From positions 1,207,874-1,271,873 of the forward strand of contig NZ_JACIEF010000003.1 of the NCBI RefSeq assembly GCF_014196715.1: a stretch of DNA of 64,000 nt, read 5' to 3'. This document shows positions 4,520-46,972 of the stretch, in pieces. Position 1 is the first letter of the stretch, and each line of letters starts with the position of its first letter. Made by a program: the position numbers and the translations under genes. The DNA is from Pedobacter zeae. Its GTDB lineage: Bacteria; Bacteroidota; Bacteroidia; Sphingobacteriales; Sphingobacteriaceae. The notes under the pieces are model-generated. The model was not told the origin of the DNA and did not search any database. It saw only the letters and a list, made by a program, of their open reading frames with translations.

Positions 4520-4873
4520 ATGGGAAAGCTTGTAGAAGAATTTAATGGCTATCGCGAAAAAATGAACAATAGGATTATGGAAACGGCAAATACAAACATC
4601 AAACGTTTTTTTGCTTTAGATACCACCTCCTATGCTGATGGCGCCCTCGATGTTAAAACCAAAGAAATGCTGGGCCTGGTGGCCTCAATGGTTTTGCGTT
4701 GTGATGACTGTATCAAATATCATTTGGGCAAATGTTTCGACGCGGGGGTAAATAACGACGAAATGAACGAAATCTTTATGGTCGCCAATCTTGTGGGCGG
4801 TAGCATTGTAATTCCACACTATAGAAGAGCTGTTGAGTATTGGGATGAACTAAGTTCTGAGTTCGGAGTTTAG
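4520..4873 (+). CDS. Carboxymuconolactone decarboxylase / AhpD-like protein
   Basis: The 117-residue helical protein carries CDDCIKYH, the CxxC-x3-H redox motif of the AhpD-like group (Cys61, Cys64, His68). It also has the conserved glutamate region TKEMLGLVAS before the motif. Members reduce disulfides or act as alkylhydroperoxidase partners; true decarboxylases lack the CxxC. A peroxidase-type role would fit the nearby oxyR and superoxide dismutase genes, but that is inference from distance only. It is transcribed divergently from the four-helix membrane protein. Confidence 0.85.
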   Translation: MGKLVEEFNGYREKMNNRIMETANTNIKRFFALDTTSYADGALDVKTKEMLGLVASMVLRCDDCIKYHLGKCFDAGVNNDEMNEIFMVANLVGGSIVIPHYRRAVEYWDELSSEFGV

Positions 4874-4891
4874 TGTTGTTATTAACGCATA

Positions 4892-4968
4892 CGTCATGCT
4901 GAATTTATTTCAGCATCTTTTTGAAAATTAACTTGCAATAAAGACCCTGAAATAAATTCAGGGTGACG
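4892..4968. repeat. Double palindromic intergenic repeat, GTCAnnCTGAATTTATTTCAG type
   Basis: The arm at 4892-4923 (CGTCATGCTGAATTTATTTC...) and the arm at 4936-4968 (...AATAAATTCAGGGTGACG) are imperfect reverse complements over about 32 bases. Each arm also has its own small dyad, TGCTGAA/TTTCAGCA and ACCCTGAA/TTCAGGGT. The nested structure is typical of mobile intergenic repeats rather than a terminator: there is no T tract after the second arm. Confidence 0.7.
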
Positions 4969-5052
4969 GTCGCCATTGGAGATTTTCATTGAGCTGTTTA
5001 CAAATATTGAAGCAAACCTAACTTAAAATAACCACTGCAAAATTCGCATAAT

Positions 5053-5640
5053 ATGACTCAAGACTCTGGACTTAATACTAAGGACTCAAAAATACGCTGT
5101 TCCTGGGCCACTTCCGATCCGCTCTACATTAAATACCACGATGAGGAATGGGGGAAGCCCGTTTATGACGATAAAATACTGTTCGAGTTTTTGATACTGG
5201 AAGGTGCGCAGGCGGGTTTGAGCTGGATTACCATTCTCCGCAGGCGCGAAAATTACCGTAAGGCTTTTGCCGGTTTTGACGTGCAAAAAGTTGCTGCTTT
5301 TACCGATGAAGATGTAGAAAGGTTAATGAACGACGAAGGTATTATCCGCAACCGCTTAAAGATAAATGGCGCTATTATTAATGCCAGGTTGTTTATCGGG
5401 ATCCAAAAGGAGTTTGGTAGTTTTTCCAAATATATGTGGAGTTTTGTTCCAGGCGGCAAGCCGATACAAAATCAGATCAAGAAAATGTCTGATGTCCCGC
5501 CAAGGACTGAACTGTCTGACCAAATCAGTAAAGACATGAAAAAGCGAGGGTTTAAATTTTTTGGCACCACCATCTGTTATGCACACATGCAGGCAACCGG
5601 AATGGTTAATGATCACCTGTTAACCTGCTGTGCAAGGTAA
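5053..5640 (+). CDS. tag: DNA-3-methyladenine glycosylase I
   Basis: The 195-residue glycosylase removes 3-methyladenine from alkylated DNA, starting base-excision repair. All four zinc ligands can be placed: Cys16 (RCSW), His29 (IKYHDEEWG), His188 and Cys192 (NDHLLTC). The spacings of 13 and 4 match E. coli Tag. The catalytic region EEWG and the LEGAQAGLSWITIL helix are intact. The first 12 residues are a variable extension; the family core begins at KIRCSW. It stands alone, but with the ATL gene nearby this region holds two alkylation-damage genes. Confidence 0.95.
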   Translation: MTQDSGLNTKDSKIRCSWATSDPLYIKYHDEEWGKPVYDDKILFEFLILEGAQAGLSWITILRRRENYRKAFAGFDVQKVAAFTDEDVERLMNDEGIIRNRLKINGAIINARLFIGIQKEFGSFSKYMWSFVPGGKPIQNQIKKMSDVPPRTELSDQISKDMKKRGFKFFGTTICYAHMQATGMVNDHLLTCCAR

Positions 5641-5685
5641 CCAGGCGTTTAGATTGTTTTTTCCTAAATGATCCTTTAATCCCCT

Positions 5686-6369
5686 TTATTTCTTAGTTGC
5701 GTTATATTCTTTTACCCATTCCACCACATCACGGCTGTCAAACTCCGTTCCCATTTCTATTTTGGCTTTCAGATCTGCTTGATCGCCCATTTTCTGCAAC
5801 AGGATATTTTTAACCGCCAGCTTTTTGGAATCTTCGGTAATGGCTTTCATAGGAAGTTCCTGTAACGGGCCAGCTCCTGGTTTTTCGATAAAGTAGCGCA
5901 CAACAGGTGCTCCTGCCGGTTTTTCAGGTACAGAATTTTGTCCACCGCCAATACTGATACCGCCGCCCATACCCATGCCGCCAAAACCACCTGTTCCTGT
6001 TCCAATACCAATTGATGGCCTGAATTTTACCTTTTTCTCTTTCACTGGTGGAATCAGAGTTCCTCCGCCAAAAGAGTAAAGATTAACCGTTCCCATTTCG
6101 ATTACCTTAACAAAACGGTATTCGAAATTGCGTCCGTTTGCAAAACCCTTGCTCACAAAGCTGTTCCCGTTCCAAAAGAAATTTTTCACTTCTTTAGCAG
6201 GTAAAATTAGGTCCGCTTCATCATTGGCGCTAATGAAAACCGAAAAATAATCGGTGCCTTTTATGGTTCCGCGTATCACATCATCATTGTTTTTAACAAT
6301 AAAATCCTGCGCAAAAATGGCAGATGCCGATGCAAAAATCAGTAATAACAGGGCTATGACTTTTTTCAT
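5686..6369 (-). CDS. Secreted hypothetical protein with a glycine-rich middle
   Basis: The 227-residue protein has a signal peptide (MKKVIALLLLIFASASAIFA, cut before QDF). An N-terminal beta-rich part follows (DFIVKNNDDVIRGTIKGTDYFSVFI), a pattern seen in Bacteroidota proteins that describe a cell-surface or periplasmic beta fold. Residues about 118-146 are a Gly/Met/Ile-rich run that is probably flexible. The C-terminal part is helical (TEDSKKLAVKNILLQKMG). No catalytic motif is seen. It is divergent from polA, with about 150 bases between the starts. I do not recognise the family. Confidence 0.65.
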   Translation of the reverse strand: MKKVIALLLLIFASASAIFAQDFIVKNNDDVIRGTIKGTDYFSVFISANDEADLILPAKEVKNFFWNGNSFVSKGFANGRNFEYRFVKVIEMGTVNLYSFGGGTLIPPVKEKKVKFRPSIGIGTGTGGFGGMGMGGGISIGGGQNSVPEKPAGAPVVRYFIEKPGAGPLQELPMKAITEDSKKLAVKNILLQKMGDQADLKAKIEMGTEFDSRDVVEWVKEYNATKK

Positions 6370-9362: not shown

Positions 9363-9400
9363 ATAACCAATATTTTAATAAAATAAAAAATATTGGTTAT
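9363..9400. repeat. Perfect 14-bp inverted repeat after polA
   Basis: ATAACCAATATTTT (9363-9376) and AAAATATTGGTTAT (9387-9400) are exact reverse complements around a 10-base A-rich loop. It lies 35 bases after the polA stop. It lacks a following T tract on either strand, so it may be an operator for the next gene or an AT-rich 3' hairpin. Confidence 0.6.
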
Positions 9401-15368: not shown

Positions 15369-15397
15369 TTTGATTTAAGATCCTTAAATCAAAAATA
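15369..15397 (-). promoter_or_regulatory. -7 box and perfect palindrome upstream of the DUF885 gene
   Basis: TTTGATTTAAG (15369-15379) and CTTAAATCAAA (15383-15393) are exact reverse complements around ATC. On the minus strand, TATTTTTG (15397-15390) is a perfect -7 box overlapping the upstream arm. The palindrome would span the transcription start and leader of the lipoprotein gene. Confidence 0.55.
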
Positions 15398-22146: not shown

Positions 22147-22187
22147 AAAAAGGCCGCTTTAGTTTAACTAAAGCGGCCTTTTATTTT
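22147..22187. terminator. Strong bidirectional terminator
   Basis: AAGGCCGCTTTAGTT (22150-22164) and AACTAAAGCGGCCTT (22166-22180) are exact reverse complements. The stem is flanked by A runs on the left and TTTATTTT on the right. It separates the SPFH gene from the convergent prc gene. Confidence 0.85.
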
Positions 22188-41131: not shown

Positions 41132-43504
41132 ATGAATAAACTGTTTACTTTAACCGGCTTACTGCTTTTTTCTGGTAGCTTAGCTTTTGCCCAAAATATT
41201 CAGAATAACCCTGGCAGCAACCATGGCAACAAATTCGAACAGTTGGGTACCATTTTACCAACACCTAACGAACAACGTACAGCCAGTGGTGCACCGGGTG
41301 TTAAATATTGGCAGCAGCGTGCCGATTATAATATTAAGTGCGAACTGGATGAAAAAAACCTGTTGCTTACCGGATCTGAAACCATCACCTATACCAATAA
41401 TTCCCCTGATCCGTTAACCTATATCTGGTTGCAGCTTGATGAAAACGAGCATAGTACGGATAGAAACGCAAACTATCAGGATGCGACCAGAATGCCTGTC
41501 TCAGCCACGACCAAAACCCTCGATCAGTTAAGTACAACAGCCAACAATGGCAATGGAATCAACATTGTCAAGTTAACGGATGCAACAGGTAAGAACCTAA
41601 AGTATACGATTAATAAAACCATGATGAGGGTCGATTTGCCCGTTGCGCTAAGAACAGGCCAGAAATTGATCTTCAACATTGATTGGAACTATAAAATTAC
41701 AGACCGGATGTCGGTTGGTGGCCGTGGAGGTTACGAATATTTCCCGGCAGATGGGAACTATTTGTTTACCATGACCCAATGGTACCCTCGTTTATGTGTA
41801 TACAGCGATTTTCAGGGATGGCAGAACCACCAGTTTACCGGTAGAGGCGAGTTTGCCTTAACCTTTGGCGATTTTAAAGTGCAGATGACGGTTCCTGCCG
41901 ATCACCTGGTGGGCTCAACAGGAGAATGTATAAACTACAGCGCAGTATTAAGCCCAACCCAGTTAAGCCGTTATAATGCGGCCAAAACGGCTTCGGCCCC
42001 TGTTGAAATCCAGACTTTAGCAGAAGCTAAAGCGGCAGAAACTAAAAAATCAACAGCTAAAAAGACCTGGGTTTTTAATGCTAACAATGTGCGCGATTTC
42101 GCCTGGACTTCTTCACGTAAGTTTATCTGGGATGCAATGCCTCAAAAAATACAGGCCAATAACAATACGGTAATGTGTATGAGCTTTTATGGAAAAGAGG
42201 CTTATAACCTTTACAGCAAATTTTCTACCCGCGCAGTAGCCCATACCATTAAAACCTATTCAGATTTTACCATCCCTTATCCATATCCGGTTGCCCAGAG
42301 TATTGAGGCGGCTAATGGAATGGAATATCCGATGATCTGCTTTAACTACGGCCGTACAGATACAGATGGTACATACAGCGAAAGTACCAAAAATGGAATG
42401 TTAGGGGTAATTATTCACGAGGTTGGGCACAACTTTTTCCCGATGATCGTAAACAGCGACGAGCGCCAGTGGACCTGGATGGATGAGGGGTTAAACTCTT
42501 TTGTTGAATATTTAACCGAAGAACTTTGGGACAATAAATTTCCAAGCAAAAAAGGACCGGCTTACACCATTGTAGATTACATGAAACTGCCAAAAGATGA
42601 GCTGGAACCAATTATGACCAACTCTGAAAACATTGCGCGTTTTGGCCCGAATGCCTATTCGAAACCGGCTACAGGCTTAAATATCCTCCGCGAAACCATT
42701 ATGGGCAGGGAACTTTTCGATTATGCGTTTAAAGAGTATGCCAGAAGATGGGCCTTTAAACACCCTGAACCTGCCGATCTTTTCCGTACGATGGAAGATG
42801 CCAGTGGCGAGGATTTAGATTGGTTTTGGAGAGGCTGGTTTTATGGAACAGATCCCTGCGATATCTCATTGGATAGCGTGGAATTTGCTAAGGTAGATTT
42901 TCCTAAAGAAGTTCCTGCGGCAAGATCGCGCATGGTTAAAATTGATAAACCTGCTGTAAATGCATTTGAAGATATTTCAAAAATCAGAAACCGTGAGGAT
43001 AAAAAAATCAACTTTTATGTAGATAAGAATACTGCTGCACAGGATTTTTATTATAAATACGACAGGGGAATGGTAAGCATTGATACTACTGTAGCCACCA
43101 AAGTAGAAGGTAGTTTGCCCATAGAAGTAGTCCCTTCTGATGAGCAGGATAAATATAAAAATAAATTCCTTTATGAGTTAAGTTTCAGCAATAAGGGCGG
43201 TTTGGTGATGCCAATCATTGTAGAGTTTACCTATAAAGATGGTACCAAAGAAATCGACCGCATCCCGGCGCAGATTTGGCGACACAATGAATTGAAAACG
43301 TCTAAGTTTTATGTAAAAGATAAAGAAGTAGCCTCTATTATGATCGATCCGTTACGCGAAACGGCCGACATCGATACCAGCAACAATAGCTGGGGCGGTA
43401 AAGCTAAAGAGAGTAAATTTAGAGCTTACAAAGCAAAAGCCGGTGGTGCAGTCAGGGGCCAGTCGGTTGGTAAAAACCCAATGCAGCAGGCTGCAGGTAA
43501 ATAA
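41132..43504 (+). CDS. M1-family metallopeptidase
   Basis: The 790-residue protein has a signal peptide (MNKLFTLTGLLLFSGSLAFA). The gluzincin site is HEVGH (His429, Glu430, His433), and the third ligand Glu452 is in WMDEGLNSF. The spacing HExxH-X18-E is correct for M1. The N-terminal beta domain (residues 50-350) fits an aminopeptidase N fold, but there is no clear GxMEN motif; the equivalent is AANGMEYPM. The C-terminal 200 residues are a Bacteroidota-specific region. It is exported, so it acts in the periplasm or outer membrane. It lies 7 bases after the HupE-like gene. Confidence 0.92.
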   Translation: MNKLFTLTGLLLFSGSLAFAQNIQNNPGSNHGNKFEQLGTILPTPNEQRTASGAPGVKYWQQRADYNIKCELDEKNLLLTGSETITYTNNSPDPLTYIWLQLDENEHSTDRNANYQDATRMPVSATTKTLDQLSTTANNGNGINIVKLTDATGKNLKYTINKTMMRVDLPVALRTGQKLIFNIDWNYKITDRMSVGGRGGYEYFPADGNYLFTMTQWYPRLCVYSDFQGWQNHQFTGRGEFALTFGDFKVQMTVPADHLVGSTGECINYSAVLSPTQLSRYNAAKTASAPVEIQTLAEAKAAETKKSTAKKTWVFNANNVRDFAWTSSRKFIWDAMPQKIQANNNTVMCMSFYGKEAYNLYSKFSTRAVAHTIKTYSDFTIPYPYPVAQSIEAANGMEYPMICFNYGRTDTDGTYSESTKNGMLGVIIHEVGHNFFPMIVNSDERQWTWMDEGLNSFVEYLTEELWDNKFPSKKGPAYTIVDYMKLPKDELEPIMTNSENIARFGPNAYSKPATGLNILRETIMGRELFDYAFKEYARRWAFKHPEPADLFRTMEDASGEDLDWFWRGWFYGTDPCDISLDSVEFAKVDFPKEVPAARSRMVKIDKPAVNAFEDISKIRNREDKKINFYVDKNTAAQDFYYKYDRGMVSIDTTVATKVEGSLPIEVVPSDEQDKYKNKFLYELSFSNKGGLVMPIIVEFTYKDGTKEIDRIPAQIWRHNELKTSKFYVKDKEVASIMIDPLRETADIDTSNNSWGGKAKESKFRAYKAKAGGAVRGQSVGKNPMQQAAGK

Positions 43505-43506
43505 CA

Positions 43507-43540
43507 AAAAATCCCCGTTGAGTTTTCAGCGGGGATTTTT
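43507..43540. terminator. Bidirectional terminator after the M1 peptidase gene
   Basis: AAAAATCCCCGTTGA (43507-43521) pairs with TCAGCGGGGATTTTT (43526-43540), with one G-T pair. A/T runs on both sides serve both the M1 gene and the convergent ATPase gene. Confidence 0.85.
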
Positions 43541-44701
43541 TTATTGAATTTCCGGAAGTATATTTAATAGAAAATGCCTAAGATTCGTGACTACAATATT
43601 GTTTGAAGTGTGGTATGTTTCACTCTTTGGGGTAATTATATATTTATACTTAGGTTCAAGATCCTGCGTGCAATTGATGAAACCTTTTGAAACAGTTGGT
43701 GCGTTTGATAGCTTAATCTCAATACAGGCAATTGGTGTAATGCCCTGAGCCAATAGCAAATCACATTCTGCACCAGTTTGAGTGCGATAAAAGAACAGTT
43801 CTGTTTGTTTTGTTTTAAGCTGATAAATCTGCTCAATTACATATCCTTCCCATGAGGCGCCTATCGCTGGATGACCAAATAAATCATTATAGCTTGGAAT
43901 ATTTAGCAAACGATGTAAGATCCCTGTATCGCGAATGTAAGTTTTAGGAGATTTAATTAATCTTTTTTTTGCATTCACAAACCAAGAAGGTAAACGCCTG
44001 ATCAAATATCCACCTTCCAAAAAGTCCAGATATCTGTTCACAGTGGGAGCGCTAACCCCTAACGATCTCGCAAACGATTCGCCATTAAATAAATTTCCAT
44101 TTAAATGTGCAAGCATACTCCAAAAATTCTTTAGTAAAATTGGGGCTAATTCTATGCCTAACATTTTAGCTAAGTCCCTTTCTATATAACTCACAATAAA
44201 GTCATCTGTCCATTCTTTGCTTAAGGTATCAGTTTCAGATAAAAGTGCTTCTGGAAAGCCTCCCCGAAACCAATGTTGGTCATCTGCTATCTCTTTTGGT
44301 AGCTCAGTTAGCCCAATAGGACATAGTTCGTTGTATAAAATTCTGCCAGCCAGTGTTTCAGAAACTCCCTTAACCAATTCTAGTGATGCTGAGCCAAGGA
44401 GTATAAATCTTCCTGGCGTTCTTTTTGCATCAATTAAAGGCCTTAGTAAAGAAAATAATTCTGGCAGTAATTGTACTTCATCAATAATTACAGTTTGATC
44501 CTGTAGATTTTCTAAAAAAGTATAAGCATCCTGTAATTTGGCCAGATCCCTGGGGTTTTCCATGTCCAGATAACTGTAATGACTTTCAAGTTGCCTGGCC
44601 AGCGTAGTTTTGCCAACTTGCCTGGGGCCCAAAATGGCTATTGCCGGCGATTTTTTTAGCCGACTTCGCAACTGTGAAGCTAGATTTCTGGTAATTAACA
44701 T
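43541..44701 (-). CDS. AAA_14-DUF4143 ATPase
   Basis: The 386-residue protein has a P-loop GPRQVGKTT (25-33) and Walker B TVIIDEVQLL (Asp74, Glu75), giving the AAA_14 domain (about 1-200). The C-terminal DUF4143 region includes AGAECDLLLAQGITPIACIEIKLS, a PDDEXK-like DxnExK site. Such proteins are common lone genes in bacteria with no confirmed role; some were proposed as regulators or mobile genes. Its stop lies just beside a bidirectional terminator. A perfect 45-base palindrome sits 15 bases before its ATG. Its base use is more AT-rich than the flanking M1 and uvrB genes, hinting at transfer. Confidence 0.87.
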   Translation of the reverse strand: MLITRNLASQLRSRLKKSPAIAILGPRQVGKTTLARQLESHYSYLDMENPRDLAKLQDAYTFLENLQDQTVIIDEVQLLPELFSLLRPLIDAKRTPGRFILLGSASLELVKGVSETLAGRILYNELCPIGLTELPKEIADDQHWFRGGFPEALLSETDTLSKEWTDDFIVSYIERDLAKMLGIELAPILLKNFWSMLAHLNGNLFNGESFARSLGVSAPTVNRYLDFLEGGYLIRRLPSWFVNAKKRLIKSPKTYIRDTGILHRLLNIPSYNDLFGHPAIGASWEGYVIEQIYQLKTKQTELFFYRTQTGAECDLLLAQGITPIACIEIKLSNAPTVSKGFINCTQDLEPKYKYIITPKSETYHTSNNIVVTNLRHFLLNILPEIQ

Positions 44702-44716
44702 ACACAGATATATAAA

Positions 44717-44761
44717 TTAACCTAGTAAATCAAAAGTTTAACTTTTGATTTACTAGGTTAA
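44717..44761. repeat. Perfect 45-base palindrome upstream of the DUF4143 ATPase
   Basis: The left arm (44717-44737, TTAACCTAGTAAATCAAAAG plus T) and the right arm (44741-44761) are exact reverse complements, 21 bases each, with a TTA centre. It lies 15 bases before the ATPase ATG. No T tract follows, so it is unlikely to be a terminator. It could be an operator, a leader hairpin or a mobile-element end. Confidence 0.8.
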
Positions 44762-44929: not shown

Positions 44930-46972
44930 ATGAAATTTAAAATCACTTCAGAATATAAGCCTACCGGAGATCAGCCAAGTGCCATTAAGCAATTGGTTGA
45001 CGGCGTAAACGCCAACGAACATTATCAAACCTTATTGGGTGTTACCGGATCAGGAAAAACCTTTACCATCGCCAATGTAATTGAGCAGACCCAGCGGCCA
45101 ACACTAATTTTAAGTCATAATAAAACCTTGGCTGCACAGCTTTATGGCGAGTTTAAGAATTTTTTCCCCGAAAATTCTGTCAATTACTTTGTTTCTTATT
45201 ACGACTATTATCAGCCAGAAGCTTTTATAGCATCCAGCAATACCTATATTGAAAAAGACCTGAGTATTAATGAGGAAATCGAAAAATTACGTCTGCGCAC
45301 CACATCGTCTTTAATGAGTGGCCGACGTGATATCATCGTGGTATCATCTATTTCCTGTATTTATGGTATGGGTAACCCCGAAGATTTCTCTAAAATGGTT
45401 TTCCGTTTTGGTGTCGGACTCAGGATTTCGCGCAATGCTTTTTTACACAGCCTGGTAGAAATTTTATATTCGCGCACCACAACAGATTTTAAACGCGGAA
45501 CATTCAGGGTTAAAGGCGATACGGTGGATGTTTTTCCGGCTTACCTTGATCACGCCTATCGCATTTCGTTTTTTGGCGATGACATTGAAGAACTTTCAAC
45601 CATCGATCCGGTATCGGGTAAAACCATTGAAAAATTGGAAGACATGGCCATTTATCCGGCCAACCTTTTTGTGACCCCTAAAGATCGTTTCAATGCCTCT
45701 ATCTGGGGTATCCAGGAAGAATTGGAAGTCCGGAAAAACCAGTTGATTGCCGACAGGCATCTGCTGGAAGCCAAGCGTTTAGAAGAAAGGACCAATTTCG
45801 ATATCGAAATGATGAAAGAGCTGGGCTATTGTTCTGGTATTGAGAATTACTCCCGTTTCTTCGATGGCCGGCAGCCGGGGATGCGTCCCTTCTGTTTGCT
45901 GGATTATTTCCCGGATGATTATTTAATGGTGATCGATGAAAGCCATGTTACTGTGCCACAGATCAGGGCCATGTATGGCGGCGACAGGTCGCGCAAGCTT
46001 TCGTTGGTTGAATATGGTTTCCGTTTACCGGCTGCGCTGGATAACAGGCCCCTAAACTTTAACGAATTTGAAGCCCTTGCGCCACAAACCATTTACGTAA
46101 GTGCAACGCCTGCTGAGTATGAACTCGAAAAATCAGAAGGGGTAGTAGTTGAACAGGTAATCAGGCCAACAGGTTTGTTGGATCCCGTAATTGAAATAAG
46201 GCCTGCCATTAACCAGGTTGATGACCTGCTTGACGAGATAGACCTGACTATAAAAGATGGGGGCCGTGTACTGGTTACAACCTTAACTAAACGGATGGCA
46301 GAGGAACTAACCAAATACCTGGACCGGTTAAACATTAAAACGCGCTATATCCACTCTGAAATCAAAACCTTGGAACGGGTTGAAATCCTTCGTGGTTTGC
46401 GTTTGGGTGAATTTGATGTGCTGGTGGGTATTAACCTTTTACGGGAAGGATTGGACTTACCTGAGGTAACACTTGTGGCCATTTTGGATGCCGATAAAGA
46501 AGGTTTCTTACGTTCAGAAAAATCGCTGATCCAGACTATAGGACGTGCGGCCCGTAATGATAGAGGGCGTGTAATTATGTATGCTGATGGCATGACTGAA
46601 AGCATGGAGAAAACGATAGATGAAACCAACCGCCGCCGGGAAAAACAGATTGCTTATAACCTTGAAAATGGTATCACACCAAAAACCGTGGGCAAATCGC
46701 GCGAAGCCATCTTAGAACAGACCTCAGTACTCGATTTCTCGCAAAAAGCAAGCGATAATAAAGCCAGGGCTTACATCGAAAATGCCGAAATCAGTATTGC
46801 TGCCGATCCGATTGTACAGTATATGGGCAAGGCAGAGCTGCAGCGCGCCATTGATAATACCCGTAAAGATATGCAGAAAGCTGCTAAAGAGATGGACTTT
46901 TTACAAGCTGCAAAACTGCGTGATGAAATGTTTGCACTGGAGAAAATGTTCAATGAAAAATTCGGCAAGTAA
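44930..46972 (+). CDS. uvrB: Excinuclease ABC subunit B
   Basis: The 680-residue UvrB loads onto damaged DNA and holds it for UvrC. The P-loop is GVTGSGKT (37-44), and the damage-wedging beta-hairpin lies in YYDYYQPEAFIASSNTYIEKD. Helicase motifs follow (VIDESHVT, then YVSATPAEYEL, and TIGRAARN for motif VI). The C-terminal UVR domain (RKDMQKAAKEMDFLQAAKLRDEM) binds UvrC. Length and order match the family (E. coli 673). The alkyltransferase-like gene at 3.8 kb is a possible damage-recognition partner. Confidence 0.97.
   Translation: MKFKITSEYKPTGDQPSAIKQLVDGVNANEHYQTLLGVTGSGKTFTIANVIEQTQRPTLILSHNKTLAAQLYGEFKNFFPENSVNYFVSYYDYYQPEAFIASSNTYIEKDLSINEEIEKLRLRTTSSLMSGRRDIIVVSSISCIYGMGNPEDFSKMVFRFGVGLRISRNAFLHSLVEILYSRTTTDFKRGTFRVKGDTVDVFPAYLDHAYRISFFGDDIEELSTIDPVSGKTIEKLEDMAIYPANLFVTPKDRFNASIWGIQEELEVRKNQLIADRHLLEAKRLEERTNFDIEMMKELGYCSGIENYSRFFDGRQPGMRPFCLLDYFPDDYLMVIDESHVTVPQIRAMYGGDRSRKLSLVEYGFRLPAALDNRPLNFNEFEALAPQTIYVSATPAEYELEKSEGVVVEQVIRPTGLLDPVIEIRPAINQVDDLLDEIDLTIKDGGRVLVTTLTKRMAEELTKYLDRLNIKTRYIHSEIKTLERVEILRGLRLGEFDVLVGINLLREGLDLPEVTLVAILDADKEGFLRSEKSLIQTIGRAARNDRGRVIMYADGMTESMEKTIDETNRRREKQIAYNLENGITPKTVGKSREAILEQTSVLDFSQKASDNKARAYIENAEISIAADPIVQYMGKAELQRAIDNTRKDMQKAAKEMDFLQAAKLRDEMFALEKMFNEKFGK

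Follow-up and report, generated by a model that had tools for sequence, protein, structure and literature searches.

A perfect palindrome beside an AAA_14-DUF4143 ATPase gene of Pedobacter zeae is a likely operator read by the ATPase itself

The palindrome and its surroundings

A perfect palindrome of 45 bases lies upstream of a gene for an AAA_14-DUF4143 ATPase in Pedobacter zeae (assembly GCF_014196715.1, contig NZ_JACIEF010000003.1), in a 64,000-nucleotide stretch of DNA that was analysed at its full length and is called the window below; all coordinates refer to it. We propose that this palindrome is probably the operator of the ATPase gene and that it is read by the ATPase itself. The gene (43541-44701, minus strand) encodes 386 amino acids with a PD-(D/E)XK-like motif and is a PADLOC candidate of the type PDC-S01. 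The palindrome (44717-44761, assigned to no strand) is made of two arms, 44717-44738 and 44740-44761, which are 100% complementary and flank the single central base 44739, and the spacer between it and the ATPase gene's ATG is 15 bases long (44702-44716). The first-pass annotation, made from the letters alone, had reported a perfect palindrome at this distance; both statements hold, each arm being one base longer (22 bases, with a centre of 1) than it had noted. No longer perfect inverted repeat is listed for the window, the maximum perfect arm being 22 bases, against only 8-11 bases for the longest perfect arm in 20 dinucleotide shuffles of the whole window. Counting positions outwards from the centre, we distinguish an outer half-site, ACCTAGT (positions 19-13; left copy 44720-44726, mirror copy 44752-44758), and an inner half-site, CAAA (positions 8-5; left copy 44731-44734, mirror copy 44744-44747).

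Beyond the palindrome from the ATPase gene lies uvrB (44930-46972, plus strand), and on the other side is a gene for an M1-type peptidase (41132-43504, plus strand) with its terminator-like hairpin (43506-43541, plus strand). The GC content of the ATPase gene (0.376) is lower than that of the peptidase gene (0.426), of uvrB (0.436) and of the window (0.395), so the earlier remark that the gene is more AT-rich than its neighbours is true of these two genes but not of the next one, for an RDD protein (0.330). A pattern scanner labels the palindrome terminator-like, with 5 of 20 pairs G-C; the observation that no T tract follows is fair all the same. A terminator reading, for which nothing but this scanner pattern speaks, was rejected. 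A proposed link with a palindrome at a DUF885 gene through a shared TGATTTA is not supported: this 7-mer is present 23 times in the window, both strands counted together, and the DUF885 repeat (15369-15393) is 80% complementary, with arms that differ from those of the ATPase palindrome. The window contains other long inverted repeats at 22148-22182 (17-base perfect arms), 1982-2031 and 9363-9400.

The ATPase-nuclease protein

The domain assignment was confirmed by Pfam, with AAA_14 (PF13173) at 8.9e-25 (87.6 bits, cut-off 27) and DUF4143 (PF13635) at 4.4e-39 (134.2 bits, cut-off 28.1). Seven PDC-S01 models of PADLOC match the protein (best 3.6e-87), NCBIfam assigns no family to it, and a sequence search of the PDB yields weak matches to ATPases, including 2fna at 3e-6. 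The translation shows a Walker A motif at residues 25-32 (GPRQVGKT; 44606-44629, minus strand), whose K31 is present in 271 of 271 family members. Residues E285, E312, D314, E328 and K330, which we take to be the catalytic residues of the PD-(D/E)XK fold (the last four encoded at 43712-43768, minus strand, E285 outside this interval), are conserved in 270, 270, 268, 266 and 268 of the 271 members, respectively. Since they are nearly invariant, the nuclease is probably active and might cut at the palindrome.

In the structure model of the protein (predicted local distance difference test, pLDDT, 95.8; predicted template modelling score, pTM, 0.93) residues 217-219 stand at the start of helix 218-230, which, judged by its setting, is presumably the recognition helix of a winged-helix domain; its beginning (residues 217-222, SAPTVN; 44036-44053, minus strand) is our proposed reader of the inner half-site. 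In the nuclease-like domain, strands 301-307 and 312-319 are joined by a hairpin that contains residues 308-311, and the hairpin loop (residues 306-311, RTQTGA; 43769-43786, minus strand) is the proposed reader of the outer half-site. Structural comparison of residues 1-267 with VIA-align gave as best matches the archaeal Walker-type ATPases 2qen (PABY2304; Z 16.8, root mean square deviation 2.9, 246 residues aligned) and 2fna (SSO1545; Z 15.9, deviation 3.1, 245 aligned). NLR and CED-4 chains follow with Z of about 13-14, Avs5 chains are also among the matches, and Foldseek adds Apaf-1 and Avs4/Avs5; p97 and dynein chains score nearly as high, often over a shorter stretch. The nucleotide-binding and winged-helix domains may thus be arranged as in STAND ATPases. 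The nuclease-like part (about residues 281-386) is outside the 2qen and 2fna matches and barely covered by the fold searches, and therefore we name no nearest fold for it.

Occurrence of the palindrome in the family

Six ATPases of the same genus with 83-87% identity (L022-L027) have a palindrome in the same place, and more distant relatives have palindromes at the same place with different letters. We scored palindromes near the starts of 271 AAA_14-DUF4143 genes, obtained from 291 hidden Markov model hits after removal of 14 without a start, 4 duplicates, 1 fragment and 1 low-scoring hit. A score of at least 10 was reached by 141 of the 271 genes, i.e. the palindrome is conserved in about half of the family: 83 of 155 genes in the query clade (those scoring at least 200 bits to the window ATPase), versus 0.8% in shuffles, and 58 of 116 in the rest, versus 0.5%. 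Thinning at 65% identity left these proportions at 62 of 118 and 37 of 79. In an earlier set of 179 genes (192 loci, less 9 without a usable start and 4 duplicates), with the palindrome centre allowed from 60 bases before to 5 bases after the start, 84 scored at least 10, versus 8 of 335 other genes of the same loci and 0.5% of shuffles. The check suggested in the first-pass annotation, a look at the regions upstream of DUF4143 genes, thus turned up palindromes family-wide. Start codons were chosen by rule (the ATG nearest to 23.5 codons before Walker A, otherwise GTG or TTG), and the distances to the ATG given here depend on that rule.

Outside Bacteroidota, with phylum labels taken from record titles, palindromes scoring at least 9 are present in Pseudomonadota (9 of 26), Gemmatimonadota (4 of 6), Acidobacteriota (3 of 6), Verrucomicrobiota (2 of 5), Nitrospirota (1 of 3) and, with one each, eight further groups; none was found in seven groups represented by one gene each. 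The centre is a single base in 70 of 76 thinned genes of the query clade and 31 of 40 of the rest at this score. The query-clade consensus for positions 20 to 2 reads approximately A T C C T T G N A A W T T T A A A A T, in which G14, A12 and A11 are nearly fixed; position 16 is variable (T, A or C), yet it is symmetric in 96% of cases. Judged from these alignments, the register of the half-sites is conserved across phyla, and their letters vary but remain symmetric. Among 20 distinct arm pairs from close homologues we counted 10 symmetric double changes and 10 asymmetric cells out of 300 (positions 4-18); thus symmetry is favoured, not absolute.

Several relatives have unusual arrangements. 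A paralogue in the same genome (L051, G000:C1, about 101000) has a 26-base palindromic unit twice before its start, and L033 has two different palindromes in tandem. In a Desulfobacteraceae locus (L140) a 47-base palindrome with a score of 18.5 precedes a control gene, not the ATPase. On plasmid pTT27 of Thermus thermophilus (L423) a family gene at 4854-6074 has a 17-base palindrome 3 bases before its ATG; the gene is probably TT_P0211. The available part of PMC4406477 reports that the DUF4143 gene TT_P0211 is up 6.6-fold with plasmid, only with Argonaute present.

Co-variation between protein residues and bases

To see what might read the palindrome, we took 141 genes (palindrome score of at least 8, one base at the centre, below 80% identity after thinning) and searched them for protein columns that change with a site position once overall protein distance is removed, with all other columns as background. 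The strongest pair is base 6 with P219 (z 11.8), followed by base 5 with P219 and S217 (8.1), base 10 with E208 (7.9), base 8 with E208 (6.4) and base 7 with F205 and A218 (5.5). On the outer side the leading pairs are 16-T309 (z 7.8), 18-A311 (6.6), 19-K339 (6.3), 13-Q308 (4.1) and 17-A311 (3.7). Nine positions outside the site gave z of at most 4.9, and positions 20, 15, 14, 12, 11, 9 and 4-1 have no clear top column (best z 3.1-5.2). In the query clade (n=95) the same columns lead at positions 19, 18, 17, 16, 13, 10, 8, 6 and 5, with 13-Q308 at 7.2, a link confined to this clade, and 16-T309 at 8.5, while at base 7 A218 takes second place; outside that clade (n=46) the leading columns are unchanged at 19, 16, 7, 6 and 5. 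When sites were swapped among near relatives (25 rounds; positions 18, 16, 10, 8, 7, 6 and 5) the maxima were z 4.7-6.1, a control that positions 18 (6.6 versus 6.0) and 7 (5.5 versus 4.8) clear narrowly and positions 5, 6, 8, 10 and 16 by more.

The pairs amount to a simple correspondence. Proteins with P219 have A at base 6 in 43 of 47 cases and A at base 5 in 42 of 47, those with K219 have G at base 6 in 29 of 32 and G at base 5 in 28 of 32, and D217 goes with G at base 5 in 26 of 29. At base 16, A309 goes with T (31 of 37), D309 with C (20 of 25), N309 with A (15 of 16) and K309 with G (3 of 3). The window's own pairing fits: P219 occurs with AA, A311 with CC, and T309 with T, the commonest base 16 for that residue (12 of 20). 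We then predicted bases from residues, with training restricted to proteins less than 45% identical; asymmetric cells were set aside, as were residues seen fewer than 3 times in training. Residue 219 predicts base 6 correctly in 89% of cases (n=121; nearest allowed relative 45%, majority base 52%) and base 5 in 88% (n=113; 43% and 60%); for base 16 from residue 309 the figure is 80% (n=111; 39% and 51%). Weaker predictions were obtained for base 7 from residue 218 (71%, nearest relative 42%), base 10 from 208 (75%, nearest relative 49%, majority base 64%), base 18 from 311 (69%, nearest relative 56%) and base 13 from 308 (61%, nearest relative 45%).

Some relatives have direct repeats upstream. 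Direct repeats scoring at least 12 were detected in 10 of 59 thinned genes without a palindrome (score below 8), versus 0 in shuffles, and also in 14 of 115 palindrome-bearing genes (shuffles 1%). Several of these arrays have a period of 22 or 23 bases, and their unit, e.g. TGTAATTTCAAA, is the same half-site as in the palindromes, in the same register. With a pattern that fixes positions 14-8 loosely and leaves 6 and 5 free, we inspected ten hand-picked direct-repeat genes, all outside the co-variation fit: CAAA occurs with P219 in seven of them, as the inner rule predicts, L297 (K219) has TGGAAT on the other strand, and no forward unit was matched by the pattern in L323 and L222. The direct-repeat relatives therefore seem, by their letters, to fit the inner residue-base rule.

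Position relative to the predicted promoter

According to the available text of PMC7366714, the Bacteroidota promoter consensus consists of TAnnTTTG at -7 and TTTG at -33. On the minus strand of the window the inner half-site reads as a -33-like TTTG (44731-44734), and a -7-like box, TATATCTG, lies at 44705-44712, 3 bases before the ATG. Among 36 genes from same-phylum genomes (taken as Bacteroidota because their nearest titled relatives are Bacteroidota) with the palindrome centre 29-46 bases upstream, an exact TAnnTTTG stands next to the ATG in 19, versus 2.8% of shuffles, and ends 3-5 bases before it in 18; with one mismatch allowed the count is 27, versus 29% of shuffles. A second group of 18 genes, drawn from other collections, has the centre at -18 to -20. 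Aligned on that centre (16 of the 18 are titled records of other phyla, 1 is a viral contig and 1 another bacterium), these genes show a consensus TTGCAA at -35 to -30, A as the commonest base at -11 (12 of 18), T at -7 in all 18 and, in 16 of them, the ATG beginning with its A at +1. Both patterns suggest a nearly leaderless mRNA whose transcript would not include the palindrome. By promoter consensus, then, the palindrome overlaps or adjoins the predicted core promoter in the window and in its relatives.

A probable self-read operator

The palindrome is most likely a switch that the ATPase reads for itself, because the presumed DNA-reading parts of the protein and the palindrome change together. 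On grounds of sequence comparison we consider it probable that the ATPase gene has its operator in this palindrome, where the protein most likely represses its own expression. In each of two symmetrically bound subunits, the winged-helix recognition helix (residues 217-219) would read inner bases 5-7, and the PD-(D/E)XK-like domain would read outer bases 16-19 through its hairpin loop (residues 309 and 311, together with 339). A protein sitting on or next to the predicted core promoter in this way would stand in the path of RNA polymerase, so that expression would stay low, and a change of state driven by ATP or by an invader might release it from the operator. The site, its conservation, its position at promoter-like boxes, the co-variation and the single exact site per genome within the genus were computed directly. 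We strongly infer that the ATPase binds its own palindrome; that it represses rather than activates we infer more weakly, and the dimer stoichiometry and the release signal would also be features of this model. Two options raised in the first-pass annotation, an autoregulatory operator and a target recognised by the ATPase, have thereby gained support, both from the association across the family, the position at or beside a predicted core promoter and the co-variation of the variable bases with ATPase residues.

A number of results weigh against this interpretation. Since 141 of 271 genes are above the threshold, about half of the genes (130 of 271, below score 10) have no strong palindrome by this measure, the Thermus homologue has one of only 17 bases, and two intact ATPases at the same locus (G634 and G597) have imperfect sites with 3 mismatches in 18 positions each. 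In the co-variation analysis positions 13 (z 4.1) and 17 (3.7) fall within the range of the positions outside the site and are therefore not clear in the full set, the swap test covered positions 18, 16, 10, 8, 7, 6 and 5 only, other columns come out on top at positions 18, 17, 13, 10 and 8 outside the query clade (n=46), and residue 208 predicts base 8 in 72% of cases, below the majority base (77%). As regards the promoter, the window's own -7 box has one mismatch to the consensus, and in the group centred near -19 the promoter-like letters are at the same time letters of the half-site (the T at -7 is the mirror image of the fixed A at 12), which leaves only the fixed distance to the ATG as independent evidence. 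A mild objection is that mRNAs of this nearly leaderless kind are rare in Bacteroides, where about 3.7% of 5' untranslated regions are shorter than 10 nucleotides (available text of PMC7366714). Lastly, about 15 examined genomes keep the palindrome at the uvrB locus without an ATPase there, and 13 of the 15 have no ATPase match at E<=1e-60 anywhere in the genome.

History of the locus

The pattern CTNGTAAATCNAAAGTTNAACTTTNGATTTACNAG was found in 26 of 145 genomes of the same genus, in one copy each, and 25 of the 26 sites are just upstream of uvrB. The site elsewhere, in G666 (L351, 1497-1539), is a perfect orphan palindrome that follows an unrelated gene, a few bases past its stop codon; the 3-kb locus has no ATPase match. 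Orphan palindromes at uvrB occur in G005, G007, G008, G025, G599, G602, G617, G618, G620, G637, G644, G645, G663, G667 and G660; the other examined uvrB loci have an ATPase, in some cases broken, or neither ATPase nor palindrome. G637 and G645 have relatives of the ATPase elsewhere (50% and 44% identical), that of G637 with a different palindrome (L397), and remnants of the ATPase were found in G660 and, by inspection, in G645. In 11 of the 15 orphans the palindrome was seen by inspection to be about 0-11 bases from the peptidase terminator. In a uvrB tree of 44 genomes (G667 not included) the orphans are spread over about ten different branches, with weak support at some nodes. The distances between ATPases correlate with those between the corresponding uvrB genes (r 0.71, p 0.0005, n=15), and because the two agree we read the history of the locus as probable inheritance with repeated loss of the ATPase. 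Perfect arms over 18 positions are present in 10 of 19 loci with an ATPase (G634 and G597 included) and 1 of 15 without (G009, whose ATPase is broken, was counted with neither), but most orphans came from a search pattern in which only positions 15 and 7 of each arm and the central base could differ, and the orphan mismatch counts are therefore biased. Two close orphans (L338 and L343) differ by a symmetric change. According to the first-pass annotation, the association would be chance if related genes lacked any palindrome and the flanking bases matched sequences without the ATPase; the former is clearly not what we see, the latter is partly true, and as ATPase-less relatives keep both palindrome and flanks the operator idea is supported, not proven.

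A mobile element, or the end of one, was considered and rejected: there is a single palindrome on one side with no pair of ends, and ATPase distances follow those of uvrB. When loci that have the gene were compared by eye with loci that lack it, no target duplication was seen, nor were there paired terminal repeats. A 17-base stretch of the arm, searched against the genome it comes from, matches nowhere outside the palindrome at 0 or 1 mismatch, and at up to 3 mismatches it has 25 and 30 matches, versus 27 and 24 for a reversed-pattern control.

The interval between the peptidase gene and uvrB harbours further arrangements. A second DUF4143 gene, about 30% identical, is upstream of uvrB in four relatives (L109/L340 in G007, L335 in G599, L376 in G631 and L405 in G639), with upstream sequence of the direct-repeat type and, in two of the four, beside an orphan palindrome. 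The interval upstream of uvrB looks like a preferred place for the DUF4143 family. In G005 (L111/L333) several tandem copies of the peptidase gene's end and terminator precede the orphan palindrome.

Alternative explanations

The palindrome might instead serve mainly as a nuclease target, cleaved or nicked under some condition by the PD-(D/E)XK-like domain, in invading DNA or at its own locus, in the manner of a homing or site-specific nuclease. The near invariance of the presumed catalytic residues (266-270 of 271), the co-variation of the loop that immediately precedes E312 with outer bases 16 and 18, the closeness of most orphan palindromes to the upstream terminator and the scatter of orphans over the uvrB tree all speak for such a role. 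However, the site of a homing nuclease is normally split by its gene, whereas here it lies uninterrupted beside the gene in all resolved ATPase-bearing loci; the correlation of ATPase and uvrB distances favours descent and loss, the site is at promoter-like boxes, and the ATPase remnants in G660 and G645 resemble ordinary deletion, so we regard this explanation as improbable. The palindrome could also be an activation operator or a parking site that keeps the ATPase-nuclease inactive on DNA, transcription control being secondary. The matched ATPases such as CED-4, NLR and Avs5 are switch proteins, residues 1-267 align with 2qen and 2fna and then with chains of these three, and the nuclease-like domain itself co-varies with the site; on the other hand, protein bound over the -35 and -10 elements normally blocks polymerase, and these are the very positions with which the half-sites of the group centred near -19 coincide, which leaves parking or activation quite unlikely in our view.

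It is barely credible that the palindrome acts as an RNA hairpin, i.e. as an attenuator, a terminator or a translational control element. It can fold, it has the weak terminator-like pattern, and it gave nine sub-threshold Rfam matches, to unrelated hairpin families; none of these reaches the gathering score, all being far below it, the few arm mismatches inspected are G-T on one strand or the other, with no preference, and a hairpin leaves the residue-base co-variation unexplained. Moreover, the promoter-like boxes put the transcription start at or next to the ATG, and the palindrome would therefore not be in the mRNA. Nor do we give much credence to another cellular regulator as the reader, very unlikely as it is even though palindromes persist in ATPase-less genomes, since the letters of the site track the residues of the adjacent ATPase in many phyla and each genome has one exact site.

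The self-read operator also invites an extension, which we regard as unlikely but worth stating, that the protein is a self-addressed ATPase-nuclease whose catalytic domain is part of the specificity reader, held off on its own promoter and attacking DNA once released, possibly copies or half-sites on rival elements. If this were true, there would be a simple code (at base 6, Pro for A and Lys for G; at base 16, Asp for C, Asn for A, Ala for T and Lys for G), and the repeated loss of the gene up to the edge of the palindrome would be the footprint of cutting there.

Relation to known systems

A palindrome over the promoter that causes steric repression is familiar from the operators of phage repressors and C-proteins. 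The proposed operator resembles these in its position; it differs from them in that symmetry in the family reaches the centre, with arms of up to 29 bases, and in that some relatives have direct-repeat arrays of the same half-site. For the ATPases 2qen and 2fna we know of no operator, although operators were not searched for. BrxR-type regulators reportedly act at a site by their own locus and limit expression, and in this the ATPase would be like them; unlike BrxR, the reader here would be the ATPase-nuclease itself, with a winged helix and a nuclease-fold loop and no separate regulator gene. BrxR of BREX is an example of a regulator of a defence locus that acts on its own locus (abstract of PMC9122589).

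The window ATPase matches the models of PDC-S01, a phage defence candidate of PADLOC combining AAA_14 and DUF4143. S01 is described as an ATPase fused to PD-(D/E)XK, and PDC-S01 as the fourth most common prokaryotic defence, with 29,494 bacterial and 9,986 archaeal cases (PMC12988326, available passages); in rumen genomes it is the most frequent individual locus, with 10,358 occurrences (PMC13356809, available passages). The accessible parts of these two papers do not state a recognised target of the proteins, and those of PMC11514479 do not mention PDC-S01. In the portions of the PDC-S01 literature available to us no operator, recognition site or regulation is described, a point at which the operator predicted here differs, and in open-licence literature we found no description of a palindrome or operator for AAA_14-DUF4143 ATPases.

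Conclusions

If the palindrome is indeed read by the ATPase beside it, about half of the surveyed members of this family would gain a predicted binding site next to their own gene, together with a residue-to-base code. With such a predicted site and code, binding, regulation and cutting would all become testable with short DNA.
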